Source: Chamaea fasciata (lineage: Eukaryota > Chordata > Aves > Passeriformes > Sylviidae). From it: a stretch of DNA of 64,000 bases. Under the pieces are notes generated by a model. That model was given only the letters and a program-made list of their open reading frames with translations. It made no database searches and was not told the origin of the DNA. The stretch lies in the NCBI GenBank assembly GCA_029207755.1, contig JARCOQ010000025.1, positions 4,270,820-4,334,819 of the forward strand, in the 5' to 3' direction. The position numbers and the translations under genes were made by a program. Shown piece after piece: positions 4,750 through 59,960 of the stretch (its first letter is position 1; each line of letters opens with the position of its first letter).

Positions 4750-5218
4750 ATCCGGGATTCTGCCATTCCCAGCTGGAATTTCGGGGCTCCCAGATGGATT
4801 TTCGGCATTTCCAGCCGGGTTTTTTTTTTTGTGTATTCCGGCTGGAATTTTGCGTTATCCCAGCCGGAATTTTGGGGTATCCCAGCCGGAATTTTGGGAC
4901 TCCCGGCTGGAATTTGAGTTCCTGGGGAAATCTGGAGTTCCTGAGGGTATTTCGGGGTATCCCAGCCGGAATTTTGGGGTATCCCAGCCGGAATTTTGGG
5001 ACTCCCGGCTGGAATTTGAGTTCTTGGGGAAATCTGGAGTTCCTGAGGGTATTTCGGGGTATCCCAGCTGGAATTTCGGGGCTCCCAGCTGGATTTTCGG
5101 CATTTCCAGCCGGAATTTTTTGTGTATTCCAGCTGGAATTTTGCGTTACCCCAGCCGGACTTTTGGGGTATCCCAGCCGGAATTTTGGGACTCCCAGCCG
5201 GAATTTTGGGGCTCACCG
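4750..5218. repeat. Higher-order minisatellite built from CAGCCGGAATTTTGGG monomers
   Basis: Monomers of about 18-26 bp alternate between CCCAGCCGGAATTTTGGG and the centre-inverted CCCGGCTGGAATTTG. A larger unit of about 102 bp is repeated: GAGTTCCTGGGGAAATC at 4916 and GAGTTCTTGGGGAAATC at 5018. The array has few stop codons, so long open frames occur on both strands. They encode only low-complexity repeats (for example [15 protein letters not shown]) and are not credible genes. Confidence 0.92.
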
Positions 5219-5219
5219 G

Positions 5220-6160
5220 CAGCAAAGAGGTTGAGGTTGGGATGCGCTGCCAGCGCCCAGAGATGGTTGTGGTCGTGCCGGACCGTTTGGACGCTGGTCA
5301 TGCCAAAGGTCATCAGTGTTTTCTTTCCCAGCCTGTTTGGAACAAATCAATACCGTGAAGGGAAGAAGAGAGGCACTGCATTTTTGTCAGTAGGATCATC
5401 AGATTGTGAAGGAGGCATTTGCTTGTGTTGTTCCATGAGCTTCTGTAGTTAGTCCCGTTTGCTGGGAAAAGTGACATTTCCACCTTGGACGAGTCCACCT
5501 TCAAAATCCATGGATTTTATTGCTTTTTGTATTAAAGACCTTTCTGTTATCAAAGTGTCCTTTCCCCCTGAGGTTCTTAATGAAACAAGCATGCAGATAT
5601 TTGTAATAGCCTTCAAGTCTGGCAATTTCTTTGCAGTTAGATTTAAATTATGCAGATCCTGGGGCAAAGACTATTTGGATTTGGTTATTTTCTGATTGCA
5701 TATCATGCTAGGAAACTTTTCAGGGAAGTGTTATCCAACTGTAGCACTAGGTGTTCAGATACTGCTAAACACATGGAATTATTTGTACTTGTGGTGACAG
5801 ATGGATAAGAAACTGTCATTGCTAGAGCAAGTGCTGTTTAATTTCAATTACAAGAAGAAAGCCTGAGTTATTATTCCCATAAATATAAACCTGACTTGAG
5901 AATTAAAATATTTAAAAATGTATTTGGGTGAGGGAGGGGTGAATTTTACCATTTTCCTTCCAGATCTGACCTACCCTTCCTCTGTTTTTCAGTGTTCCAA
6001 ATGGTTCTCTGGTAACCCATTAACCTTTCAGATATCAGGAGAGCACAATATTCTTTTTTCTTTCCGGTGTTTGACTGTTTCCTAAGTGGTTTACAATCCA
6101 CTTTTAGGCTTTATGAACAGCAAAACTCCTAGGAGTGTTTCTTAGCTCTGCAGAGGATTG
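5220..6160. other. Intergenic, no gene recognised
   Basis: AT-rich single-copy-looking sequence. No splice-bounded exon or repeat was recognised. Confidence 0.35.
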
Positions 6161-24304: not shown

Positions 24305-24485
24305 AGGATGAGTTTGGGGATGGGCTTGGGGATGGTTTGGAGATGATTTGAGGATGAGTTTGGGGATGGGTTTGGGGATGGTTTGGAGATGATTTGAGGA
24401 TGGGTTTGGGGATGGTTTGGGGATGGGCTTGGGGATGCATTTGGGGATAGTTTGGGGATGGGTTTGGGGATGATTTGGGGATGGA
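24305..24485. repeat. 12-bp purine-rich minisatellite (GATGGGTTTGGG)n
   Basis: About 14-15 degenerate copies of a 12-bp unit (GGGGATGGTTTG, GGAGATGATTTG and similar). There is strong strand asymmetry: almost no C on the plus strand. The unit length is a multiple of three, so the minus strand holds an open frame with repeated HPQTIPKPIPK that is not a credible gene. Confidence 0.93.
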
Positions 24486-31548: not shown

Positions 31549-32250
31549 TCAGGGCCTGGCCGCCTTCCTGCTGAGCACGCAGACGCAGGCGGTGTCGATG
31601 CGGATGAACCTCCAGGCTGCCTGCTTGCCCTCCATGGTCAGGGCCTTGACGAAGGTGTGGGTGGTGGTGCAGTACGAGTTCCAGTGCTTGGCGTCGATGC
31701 CGCGGCACCCGCCCGACACCGGCTTGGGGTCCCTGCACTTGGTCTCGAAAAAGTACTGCTTGAAGACGTTGTTGTTGATGTTGACCTCGCCCAGCACCGT
31801 CACCTCCTTTCCCTTGATGTCGGTGGCCGTGGTTTTGTCCCCGACCCACATGCTGACGCTGTCGCACACCGAGAACTCCCCGCGGTGCAGCACGGGGTGC
31901 GTGCTCCTCCTGCTCCTGGCAGTCCTGTTGAGAGCCCCCGCGCCGCTGAGAAACCCCAAATTCCGGCCCTGCCCGGCCACTGGCGGGGGCTGCGTGCTGA
32001 ACAGCACCCGGGGAGACCGGAAACGCCGCTTCCGAAAAATTTTGGGGTCCACGGTGATGTTTACAGCTTCTCTCCTGCCGAGGCTCCACGTGGCGTGGCC
32101 GTGGGATGTGTGCGGAGCCGCCTGGGCAATGTGGGTACTGAGCAGGGAGTGTTCCGCAGGGTACTCCAGTGGAGCATTGTCCTCTGACTTGGGAGCTGCC
32201 TGTGTGCCGATCAAAACAGCTACAGCCAGAGTGTAGAACAGCATGGGCAT
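31549..32250 (-). CDS. NGF: Nerve growth factor (beta-NGF) prepro-protein, complete, 233 aa
   Basis: NGF is a secreted neurotrophin that binds TrkA (NTRK1) and p75NTR to support sympathetic and sensory neurons. The reading frame shows a signal peptide (about residues 1-18, [18 protein letters not shown]), a pro-domain with sequons at N64 (NIT) and N108 (NRT), a basic RKRR at 73-76, and a furin-type RSRR at 112-115. The mature chain is residues 116-233 and starts [11 protein letters not shown]. Its six cystine-knot cysteines are at 129, 172, 182, 194, 222 and 224, with the spacing of mammalian NGF. Hallmark stretches include [34 protein letters not shown] and [18 protein letters not shown]. 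The whole protein is in one exon, as expected for NGF. I chose the start at 32250 because it lies 11 nt inside a canonical acceptor (TTGCAG|GTCACC at 32262/32261). The frame stays open to an ATG at 32319, but that extension lies inside a tandem repeat (see findings). The coding region is much richer in GC than its flanks. Confidence 0.98.
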
Positions 32251-32495
32251 TACGTGGTGACCTGCAACGAGAGAGAAAGGCTCTGTTACTGCAGTCAGAG
32301 TGTAGAACACCATGGGCATTACGTGATGACCTAGAACGGGGGAGAGAGGCTCTGTTATTGCAGAGTGTAGAACAGCACGGGCATTACATTATCACCTAGA
32401 ACAAGAAAGGCACTGTTACTGCTGTCAGAGTGTAGAACAGCATGGGCATTACGTTATCACCCAGAATGATAGAGAAAAGCGCTGTTACTGCGAGC
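32227..32495 (-). repeat. Four tandem copies of the NGF acceptor and start-codon segment (65-69 bp unit)
   Basis: On the plus strand the unit begins CAGAGTGTAGAACA at 32227, 32296, 32361 and 32426, giving periods of 69, 65 and 65. On the minus strand each unit reads: pyrimidine tract, acceptor, a 9-11 nt leader, ATGCCC, then eight codons beginning MP and ending LFYTL or VFYTL. The ATGs are at 32250, 32319, 32384 and 32449. Acceptor AGs are intact in copies 1-3 (TTGCAG, TTCTAG, TTCTAG; exon starts would be 32261, 32330 and 32395). Copy 4 reads TTCTGG, so its AG is lost. Copy 1 continues into the NGF coding sequence and is the ancestral boundary. Copies differ at several positions, so the array is not brand new. 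Confidence 0.93.
32262..32264 (-). promoter_or_regulatory. NGF: 3' splice acceptor of the NGF coding exon (copy 1)
   Basis: The minus strand reads CCTTTCTCTCTCGTTGCAG followed by GTCACCACGTA and the ATG. The 11-nt leader resembles the leader I recall from mammalian NGF, which supports this as the ancestral boundary. Competing AGs lie 69 and 134 nt further upstream in the tandem array. Confidence 0.8.
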
Positions 32496-33674: not shown

Positions 33675-35734
33675 AAGACGTTATCACACCCTCAACAGCC
33701 ACACACCTGCCACGTGGCCAGACCCCAGTGCTGGCTGGCTCAGCAGCCTCCAGTGGCTGCCAGCTCTCCCACCTGCCCTTTCAGCACACACCACATCACT
33801 GAGTTAGGGCAGATAAAGCCCAGACTCCTTCCTTGGAGAGCTCAGGTATCTGTGTCACAAGGACAGATGGGATTTTTCCACATTCAAGGGCAAATACGGG
33901 AGTACTGTGGGTGCCAAGCTACCTCTGCATTGGCATCCTAGATACAGCACAGCTAAAGCCATTGAGGCCAAAGCACTGGGAGTCCTGGACAGGGAAACAC
34001 CTGGAGTTTTTTTCAGAATGCCATGAGCAAGAACTCCCTAAAAGTGCCTGCAGAGCAGATGCAGTGCCAGTGCTGGTCCTCCTTCAACCCAGAGGACAGG
34101 CACATCTGTTTGGGTGTGGAAAAGTGCAAGCCAAATGTCTAAACCTTTGCTAAGACCCATGTCATGCTGGAAGAGCAGCAGCAGCAATACCTCGTTGGAC
34201 AACTACCATGTGCTGACTAATTCAGCCACATGTTGGGAATGAGAGACATTCAGAAAGGCTCTGGAATTGCAGTGAAGGGCAGACATTGTATTTCCTCCGT
34301 AAAGACTTAATAAGCAGAGACAGGGTATAAACAGAAAAGCCCGGGTGAGGCTCCTCCCCGTCTCTTTGCCTTGTTTTCCTGACATGTCTCAGCTGGCCCC
34401 GAGCTCTGCCGTGGCTGGCCAGCAGGCAGGGAGCCCCAAAGCCACTGGACAAACAGGGTTTTGTACCAGAGGAATCGGGCTCTGCAGTTCCACTGTGATT
34501 TTCCAGAATGTCCTAATGTTTTTTCTGGGTGTGGGTCAATTATGGTTGCAGTTCCCCCTCTCTGTGGAGCTTTCTCAGATTAGAATCCCAAACAGCATTG
34601 AAGGATTTGACCAGGGTGCTCTGCCAGAGCATAATCCTCTGGAAAATGCAGAGGTGTCCCACAGGACCTGGTGTGTCTTATCTCAGACAGGAGCTGAAAT
34701 GACATAAACACGGGGTTTGTGCAGGGCTGAGCAAATATTTAGGAAACCAGGAGCCAAGTGAAGGTAGCGTCTGAGGAGGGTGGAGAAGCAGAGCCTGCCT
34801 GGAGGCGAGGAAGGCAGAGAAAGGCCAATAGCTGTGTGAGCACTTGTCTGTGCAACTGCTGGGCTGGAGGCACTGGGGACAAAATGATGACGAGGGGAGT
34901 CAAATGTTTATCACAGAGCAAATCCTTACTGTCCCAAAGCCACTTGAGTTTGCTTAAAGCCAGGCTGAGGGTTGCTGCTTTCCCACGTGCTGCTCGTGCT
35001 GGAGCACTCGTCATCCTCTGTATAAGGAAACAGAGCTGGGTGTAGCTCGGAGCTTGGCTGGGCACCCTCCAGAGAGTAACCCCTTGTTCTACCACCAAAT
35101 TAAAGTCAGATGGTTCATTGCATCCCTCCAGAGTCAGCTTTCCCGACAGAAATGTTAATGGGAAAGGTTTGCAGAATAAAATCCAGGCACAATTTTGCCA
35201 TGCCAATAGCAGCCTCAGTGTATTGTGTTTATGCATAAACCCCTTTTTTATTATTTCCTTCTATAGGAAAGAGATGGTGCAATGTCAGCAAAGAGCTGGT
35301 TCTGGTTTTGTGCTGTACCACATTTGCTGCTCTAAAATGCAGCTACATTTACCTCCCTTCTCTTGAGTTGCCTGTGCTGAGATTTTTGCTTTAATGCCAT
35401 TAACACAAAAGCAGAAAGACCTTGCCTGCTTGCCTTTTTTCTTTAATTGCCTTGTATTTCCTCTCCTTGTGCTAAATTATTATGTGGAGTGTGGCCCAAA
35501 CACAAACAGAACACATCTGGGATACAAGGTAACTTTTCTGGATTCAAAATGGAATATTTTTATCAGTTAGTGAGTTAGTGGAGAATAGAAAGTGACACAT
35601 TAGAAAAGTGAACTTGGCTTGATGACAACACAGGCAAGAGAAGTTAACATCAAAGAACAGATTACCCTTGGGCTGTGAGGGTTGTGAACTCTTTTGCTGG
35701 CACATAGTGGTATTTTACGGGCTATTTTGGGGAG

Positions 35735-35828: not shown

Positions 35829-37934
35829 TCCAAACTTTGTCACATAATTAGTTCTTAGAGCCTCTGCTGGTGCTTTCTGGGGATGTTCACAGTGGATGCC
35901 TCGTGCAGCCGCCTGGACTTGCAGGGGACGTGCAGCTGCCAGTTCCAGTGCTGGGGGTCCATGGATGCCTGATGGAGCCCGGGCCACAAAGGTTATCACG
36001 AAATGACACCACCTGCACTGACCCCACTTCTGTGCTGGTCAAGTGTCATTACCCCTTCCTCTGGAGCCCGGCCATGGGTGACTCCAGGCTGCTGTGGGCA
36101 GGGAGTGCTGCCTTACCTCTGAGTGGACTGCACGAAGAACTGCTCCCCCAGCAAGGTCCTTATTTCATCCAGAGCTGAGCCGGGCTGTGCTGCACCTTGC
36201 CATGGGGCCCTGCTGCTCCTGCCAGCTGCCTGTGCCGTGGGTCACTGGGGGCAGAAGGGTCTGTGTCAGTAATTAGCCAGCAAATCAGTATTGGCAGTGC
36301 CATTCCCCCCTTGGCAGCAGGAGCATGGGGACAAACCCCCTTGGCTTTCTGCGCTGTGCCTTTTCCCTGTCACAGCACCAAGCTTGTCCAAAGCAGTTGC
36401 AGACTGCAGAGCAGCACTTTTGTAAGCCAGGGCTGCCTTTACTCAGCACCTCTACTAGAGTGTGGTTATTGATCCACTGCTTCCCACTCCTCTCAGAGCC
36501 TTCCGGGCTCAGCAAACCCAGGAGAGGTGCCCTGTGGGGCAGCAATACCTGATGGCGCTGCACAGCAGCCAGGCACAAACCAGGGATCACAGCCTCAACA
36601 TCTGTTCTGGGAAGCAAGTCTGGTTACAATTAAATTCAGGAGGAGACTCCCAGATTGCCATTTATTGGCAGACAATTATCTCATTGTGGCTGATATTTGA
36701 GAAGAATTGAAGATACAAAACTCACAGGCACGTAAAAGCACACAGGTGTTTGTTGTATTGCTGCTGTAAGGGCAGCAATGACTCCAGTCTTAACCACTAC
36801 ATTGTGAATGGTCATACAGACCCCAGCTAAAGGAAAACCATTTTTAATTTTTCTTCAGCACTTAAATCCAGCACACTGACACCTTCTCAGCAAAACACAT
36901 TTTCTGATTGTAAATTCATGGCACTGAAAGGGATAGAAGTAGTATTTTATTAATCTTATTATTCAATAGCTTATCTGCTCCATTTCATAAGGGAAGTAGG
37001 GGTTGTATAAGGTAAATAGGGGTTGGATGAGGTACTCCTGTACTGCAAAAATCCTGCTGCATTCAGGCTGGAGTGCATTTGCTAAGGAGAACAAGCTGCT
37101 AATGCCAAAGCATGAACTGAACTCACTTTCCACCTGCACAGTGTCTGTCCTCGGGAGCTCTGGCTGCCAGCAAAGGCAGCCGCTGACTTTGGCTCCTACC
37201 AACACCCAAGCAGAAGTTACTTGATGTTTAAACCTCCAGCTGAAACCCTCCCAGCCTGTTTCCAGCAGTGCAGGGCACAGGAGTCACCCTGTTCCGTGCT
37301 CCTGGAGCAGCACTTGTGCAGTGGTTTGGCCACCCTGCCTCTGTCTGGGGCCGTGGCTCAGGTTCCCCCTGGGTGTTACAGGATTTGGGAGCTGAGCTGG
37401 CTGCACTCGTATCAGCATGTCAGAAAGGTCACACAGAGTTCCAGAGTCCAGAGCTTCATGCTACAGATGGAGTATGCTGTATTTTTGCAGGAATGTACTA
37501 GTGAAGTAATAACCCTTTCAGTGAACTCTGGAGAGTTGAGTACCAGTAATGATAGAGCTATAATGTGCTGGCCACTGCCAAAAATAATCCAACAACTTTT
37601 CCAACTGTTCTGCCACCCTAAGAAAACACTGTTTCAGTTCCAACTGGCTGTTTTTTAACCACAAAAGCATTTATTTTCAGCAGGACTTTTTTTTTTTAAA
37701 GTTCTTTTACTGTCTTTTTCCCGGATTCCTGGCTGTGGCAGAATCCAGTAAATGATGTGGTGTTATTCAGCATCCATAGACTATTCCTCTGTTCTACCAC
37801 TCCCAGACATTCATAAAATATCCTACTGAAGTGAGTCTTTCTTCAGCATTTACATGAATACAGGATGACAGACCTGGTGGGTAAAAATGCCTCATTCAAT
37901 CTGATTTCTTGGTCTCAGCACATGTAGAGTAGAA

Positions 37935-44859: not shown

Positions 44860-45178
44860 AACTTCAGCATTCAGCATCCCCAGTGTGTCAGGCCAAACAG
44901 AGCCCTCTGAGCATCCCCAGTGTGTGAGGACAAACACAGCCCAAACTTCAGCCCTGTGAGCATCCCCAGTGTGTCAGGCCACAGAAACCCCAAACTTCAG
45001 CCCTGTGAGCATCCCCAGTGTGTCAGGCCACAGAAACCCCAAACTTCAGCCCTGTGAGCATCCCCAGTGTGTCAGGCCACAGAAACCCCAAACTTCAGCC
45101 CTGTGAGCATCCCCAGTGTGTCAGGCCACAGAAACCCCAAACTTCAGCCCTGTGAGCATCCCCAGTGTGTCAGGCAGC
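44860..45178. repeat. 49-bp minisatellite, about six copies
   Basis: The unit GAGCATCCCCAGTGTGTCAG...CAGCCCTGT starts at 44909, 44958, 45007, 45056, 45105 and 45154 (last one partial), with a degenerate copy before 44909. Copies 44958-45153 are virtually identical. The length is not a multiple of three, so frames rotate. Confidence 0.95.
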
Positions 45179-59624: not shown

Positions 59625-59960
59625 CTCAGAGCCCGAGCGCTGCTCGCCGGGGGCTCGGCGCTGCCCGAGGGGTGTCCAGGCTGCTCTGCGCTCCGTGGCA
59701 CCCCTGTGCTCGGCCCCTGTGGCCAGCCCGCAGAGCCATTCACATTCCCGCTGCCGTCGCAGCCTCATTCAGCGCTCAGGGCTCCGCTCTGATTCACGGC
59801 GTGCCGGCTCCCTCTGGGTCCTAGCGCTGTGGACGTGTGGGAGCTGCTGGGACTCGCAGGAATTCAGCCCCCTTGGCTCGCTGCCGAGCGCAGGCAGGGA
59901 TGCACAGATGTGCAGTGAAAGTTTCAAAGCGCGGCTGGTCGTGTGAGTGCGCTCACAGAA
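59625..59960 (-). other. NGF: Candidate NGF 5' non-coding first exon
   Basis: The minus strand reads TCTGAG|GTGAGTGACC with the exon end at 59625. This is a near-perfect 5' splice donor at the heart of a CpG island about 27 kb upstream of the NGF coding exon. Mammalian NGF has one or more 5' non-coding exons far upstream, so the placement fits. The right-hand (5') limit is a guess because no TATA box or other start marker was recognised. I did not find an intermediate non-coding exon. The alternative is a first exon of another minus-strand transcript. Confidence 0.5.

Follow-up and report, generated by a model that had tools for sequence, protein, structure and literature searches.

Organization of the NGF locus

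The window, by which we mean the whole 64-kb stretch of Chamaea fasciata DNA that was analysed, has the NGF coding exon on its minus strand, and the 3' splice site of this exon is straddled by four diverged tandem units spaced 69, 65 and 65 bp apart. The gene had been named as NGF in a first-pass annotation, and the identification is borne out by a PF00243 domain (E 2.4e-54 to 3e-54; 182.4 bits, the cut-off being 27), by PDB 6xuo as the best solved relative (E 2.5e-96), and by the top three database relatives, which are songbird NGF proteins with 92-93% identity. Other NGF relatives were three further oscine representatives at 84-89% identity and the suboscine Corapipo at 88%. These identities place the window among the songbirds or their near relatives. 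The features of the locus are collected in Table 1, in which, as in the text, a slash marks a splice junction.

Table 1. Features of the NGF locus in the window, ordered by position
Feature	Position	Strand	Basis or content
NGF coding exon, acceptor 1 to stop, preproNGF of 233 aa	31549..32261	-	PF00243, PDB 6xuo
Extended ORF, 256 aa, reachable via acceptor 2 or 3	31549..32319	-	Computed translation
Unit 1, adjoins the coding exon	32220..32288	-	TAACAG, pyrimidine tract, acceptor CAG, exon start 32261, ATG 32250
Unit 2	32289..32357	-	Layout of unit 1, acceptor TAG, exon start 32330, ATG 32319 in frame with unit 1
Unit 3	32358..32418	-	61 nt, two 4-nt alignment gaps, acceptor TAG, exon start 32395, ATG leading to a 9-codon ORF
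Unit 4, farthest upstream	32419..32487	-	GG replaces AG at homologous position 32460 (TGG/GT)
Probable proximal 5' exon	33707..33851	-	Similar to a Coturnix NGF N-terminus, stop inside; tblastn E 2.4e-11 (33851-33732); donor CAG/GTGTGT
Possible second upstream 5' exon	36117..36187	-	Two pieces in different frames, similar to an Apus NGF N-terminus (tblastn, E 0.001 and 0.22, respectively); donor GAG/GTAAGG
Homologue of the first coding exon of long preproNGF (MRLRRQRECEW...GSE)	59625..59768	-	tblastn with Corapipo isoform X1 N-terminus; donor GAG/GTGAGT

Two further stretches of the minus strand were observed. An open reading frame with MRCIKILLFIFNLTFW lies at 1780-2319; a Pfam scan of it found no Pfam families, and we take it to resemble exon 1 of the NGF neighbour tetraspanin-2. 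The intronic stretch at 34778-35014, once translated, matches the beginning of the canary NGF gene model at 87% identity. Because that model has no normal start and also takes in pro-region sequence in the wrong frame, its start is probably an annotation fault and was given no weight as evidence.

Structure and age of the tandem array

With a threshold score of 50, Tandem Repeats Finder (TRF) reported a single array at 32223-32491 with a period of 65, 4.0 copies and a score of 328, and when the 411-bp segment 32150-32560 was shuffled 200 times with its dinucleotides kept, the program gave one array at a score of 50 and none above. At the spacings given above the interval holds four ungapped 49-nt copies, with identities to the first of 82, 84 and 88% for the other three. 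Both results confirm what had been noticed at first pass, namely that the acceptor, the start codon and the beginning of the signal peptide are tandemly duplicated fourfold. Measured from TAACAG to TAACAG, units 1-4 are 69, 69, 61 and 69 nt long, with the exon attached to unit 1. Pairwise identity between units is 82-89%, with differences at 11-18% of sites and two 4-nt gaps; since the units differ to this extent, the array is probably old and not an assembly stutter. The motif TAAC was found in all four units and is, we assume, a plausible branch point. Three of the units carry an AG acceptor with a strong pyrimidine tract (CAG/GT at 32261, TAG/GT at 32330 and TAG/GT at 32395) and the fourth a GG, and these positions agree on the minus strand with those first noted. 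The earlier observation that every unit contains ATGCCC and eight signal-peptide codons also held when all four were read, the codons spelling MPMLFYTL in units 1 and 4, MPMVFYTL in unit 2 and MPVLFYTL in unit 3.

A four-unit profile recovered its own four units with nhmmer at E values up to 10, and no further copies of the unit were found in the 64-kb window. An exact 27-mer of the bird DNA, sought in a viral contig collection, gave 0 matches. Tandem arrays are plentiful in the window, which contains 16 others at a TRF score of at least 50 (simple runs included, merged by hand). Among the other repeats of the window, minisatellites were seen at 410-703 (43 bp), 4827-5220 (102 bp), 24305-24484 (46 bp) and 44901-45175 (49 bp).

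The relationships between the units could be read from their differences. Units 1 and 2 differ at 7/62 sites and units 3 and 4 at 7/57, and the mixed pairs at 9/57, 10/62, 9/57 and 11/62 (in sum 39/238). Two columns are parsimony-informative, both in the exon part; each joins unit 1 with unit 2 and unit 3 with unit 4, no column conflicts, and the unit tree is ((4,3),(2,1)). The residue before V-M is N in units 3 and 4, as in songbird proteins (QNVMPM, HNVMPM, PNVMPM), and units 1 and 2 read HHVMPM, which dates the HH to a time later than the first duplication. All four units and 6/6 oscine proteins compared have the P and F of the MPMLFY type, and MSMLYY is present in 10/10 other proteins with the region (suboscine, non-passerine, and one without a name), which places the duplication later than that change.

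Distances amount to 0.122 and 0.134 within the pairs and to 0.185 between them, with standard errors of 0.047-0.061. With the intron rates reported for chicken and turkey (2-3.9e-9 per site and year; PMC2946954), the pairs would be roughly 16-34 My old and the first split roughly 24-46 My old, rough values that come from stretches of 57-62 sites and from a rate that is not a songbird one, and that conversion or constraint would bias. The array thus probably dates back tens of millions of years, and an array of that age should be common to several songbird families. By hand-counted columns, variation was lower in the exon part (6/35) than in the intron part (11/27; Fisher p 0.049), and without unit 1 the counts were 5/35 and 9/27 (p 0.12), a weak hint of constraint or conversion.

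Predicted splicing and competing readings

Acceptors were scored with an approximate matrix, so that its scores are meant for ranking alone. On this scale units 1-3 reached 10.61, 8.74 and 10.66 bits and unit 4 reached -1.82, and acceptors 1-3 fell at percentiles 99.34, 97.82 and 99.35 of the 9537 AG sites found on both strands of the 64-kb window. In in-silico mRNAs acceptor 1 yields the ordinary preproNGF of 233 aa; acceptor 2 lengthens this in frame by 23 residues, to 256 aa; and acceptor 3 gives a bare ATG-stop, then a 9-codon upstream ORF (MPVLFYTLQ), then the 256-aa ORF of the acceptor-2 start. The extension is less hydrophobic than the authentic core, its best 9-residue mean being 1.78 against 2.56. 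Provided that the signal peptide is still cleaved, one proNGF could come from all three acceptors. As the three acceptors score well by the approximate matrix and the in-silico mRNAs can be translated, it is possible that the array gives rise to alternative 5' ends of NGF.

Tandem repeats over exon-intron boundaries have been named "mirages", from the amphioxus Adh3 gene (PMC3087553, PMC3902484). We think it fairly probable that the NGF array is an old and mostly neutral mirage, with acceptor 1 as the main splice site and acceptors 2 and 3 as minor sites at most. A stretch of about 69 bp, comprising a presumed branch-point region, the pyrimidine tract, the AG, the 11-nt leader, the ATG and eight codons, would have been duplicated within the songbird lineage, perhaps between the similar sequences CTGGCTCGCAG in the intron and CTGGCTGTAG in the exon, a similarity whose shortness weakens this suggestion. 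Two units would have come first and each would then have doubled, with the exon staying attached to unit 1 and units 2-4 becoming intron. In some mRNAs the splice may fall at acceptor 2 or 3. With acceptor 2 the 23 extra residues would precede the same signal peptide and should leave with it on cleavage, and with acceptor 3 the 9-codon upstream ORF would be expected to lower translation. The array may have been tolerated because every one of these outcomes can still yield the same secreted proNGF.

The predicted role of acceptor 1 as the main site rests on the lancelet precedent, in which regular splicing is apparently undisturbed according to amphioxus Adh3 data and globin RT-PCR, and the Adh and TnC mirages are reported to generate no aberrant mRNAs (PMC3087553, PMC3902484). 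Counting against its dominance, acceptor 3 scores level with acceptor 1 (10.66 versus 10.61, on the ranking scale) and lies earlier in the transcript, and the choice of an AG has been described as a 5'-to-3' scanning downstream of the branch point.

It might also be proposed that regulated use of the three acceptors sets the dose or targeting of NGF, by way of the upstream ORF with acceptor 3 and a longer signal peptide with acceptor 2; we judge this unlikely. In its favour, all three acceptors are within the top 2.2% of the 9537 AG sites by the approximate matrix, the 69-bp unit 2 is in frame with unit 1 and without a stop, and the exon part is slightly more conserved, but units 3 and 4 are spaced at 65 bp, which is not a multiple of three, the AG has been lost in unit 4, and a single open in-frame unit is by our estimate unremarkable by chance. 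That 16 other tandem arrays share the window likewise argues against a special function. The 23-residue extension was found in no database protein, being absent from 6 hits among 30 candidates that each covered 53-56% of the 45-residue query, which is weak counter-evidence in a database of cluster representatives with many songbird entries labelled "partial".

In mouse, long and short preproNGF are made from alternative 5' exons. The Corapipo match at 59625-59768 covers 51 residues, 3 of them beyond the donor, at 67% identity (tblastn, E 4.9e-16), and the exon (59768-59625) is open throughout. As in the long preproNGF of the birds Corapipo, Chroicocephalus and Guaruba, an MRL-RQRECEW...SE exon lies upstream of the same coding exon; their proteins, however, read E-VHNV-M or E-VHSV-M, implying 12 nt before the ATG if the junction is equal, whereas in this bird 11 nt lie between acceptor and ATG in all four units. 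Because 11 nt and not the expected 12 precede the ATG, the long frame runs through acceptors 1, 2 and 3 into SEVTT, SEVIT and SEVIM, respectively, and then into a TAA that overlaps the NGF ATG, so that with each acceptor the upstream exon is out of frame with the coding exon and stops after three of its codons. Rescue by other AGs was considered and rejected: of 17 AGs from 32520 to 32261, two are open from the phase-0 donor, namely the AGAG/CC sites at 32280 (unit 1) and 32349 (unit 2), which restore the long frame and are both very weak (-5.73 and -5.86 on the ranking scale). As read from the sequence, long preproNGF is closed with ordinary splices and the upstream exon would become a 51-codon upstream ORF; by ordinary splices, then, this bird would no longer be able to make the long form. 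When songbird long-form proteins were sought with the Corapipo N-terminus, the query returned its own cluster only (1 of 7 candidates), and the gull and parrot long forms were also missed by this search.

A further proposal is that after a one-base loss at the exon start had shut long preproNGF the choice among acceptors 1, 2 and 3 came to act in this songbird lineage as a dial which sets NGF translation through the upstream ORF and the doubled signal-peptide start; we hold it to be quite improbable. Very little weight is given to ongoing intron gain, in which the donor would lie in one unit and the acceptor in the one after it, producing introns of 65-69 nt or recursive splicing. The AG/GT of units 1, 2 and 3 does form a proto-splice layout, but by general knowledge GTCACC, GTCATC and GTGATA are poor donors, and the resulting introns would be very short. 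Mirages have been proposed as a source of new introns (PMC3087553), yet the amphioxus cases are reported with regular splicing (PMC3087553, PMC3902484). An assembly artefact, or an expansion in one individual, is very improbable: tandem arrays are error-prone, and in amphioxus mirage length varies between haplotypes and one draft-genome array was aberrantly assembled (PMC3087553, PMC3902484), but divergence of 11-18% together with two 4-nt gaps is far above read error or recent slippage, although the number of copies may yet turn out to be inexact or to vary.

The NGF array among known boundary repeats

The first-pass annotation knew of no earlier description of such an array. For NGF this stands, as no report of a boundary repeat in NGF or in songbird NGF was found among the matches listed from titles and abstract openings of the open-access literature, but it does not stand for the kind of repeat, which has been described in amphioxus as mirages (PMC3087553, PMC3902484). 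No further vertebrate mirage was present among the matches listed from the same titles and abstract openings. If the array is real and common across songbirds, it would mean that a first-rank vertebrate gene carries a mirage, and it would offer a natural test, perhaps tens of My old, of how the spliceosome chooses among near-identical acceptors. It would also suggest that a strongly conserved gene is able to carry a repeated start.

Besides Adh3, mirages were described in lancelet globin, troponin C and PGBD5 genes (PMC3087553, PMC3902484), and like the NGF array they consist of short tandem units over an exon-intron boundary. In the NGF array the units span a boundary that is placed by homology and sequence, and AG is retained in 3/4 of them, in line with the amphioxus mirages, in which splice signals are kept in many but not all units (PMC3087553, PMC3902484). 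The unit of 61-69 bp compares with 150-160 bp in BflGb6 and 10-72 bp in Adh3, and in lancelet PGBD5 imperfect repeats of 60 and 108 bp lie across splice sites (PMC3087553, PMC3902484). The NGF array differs from the amphioxus mirages in its bird host and in units that carry a start codon and the start of a signal peptide.

A second known system is the gain of introns when segments bearing AGGT are duplicated in tandem (PMC4974935; also discussed in PMC3087553). The trait shared with it is the AG/GT present in 3/4 units, unit 4 having GG/GT. It differs from the present case in that here, on the simplest reading, the original intron would merely have been lengthened.
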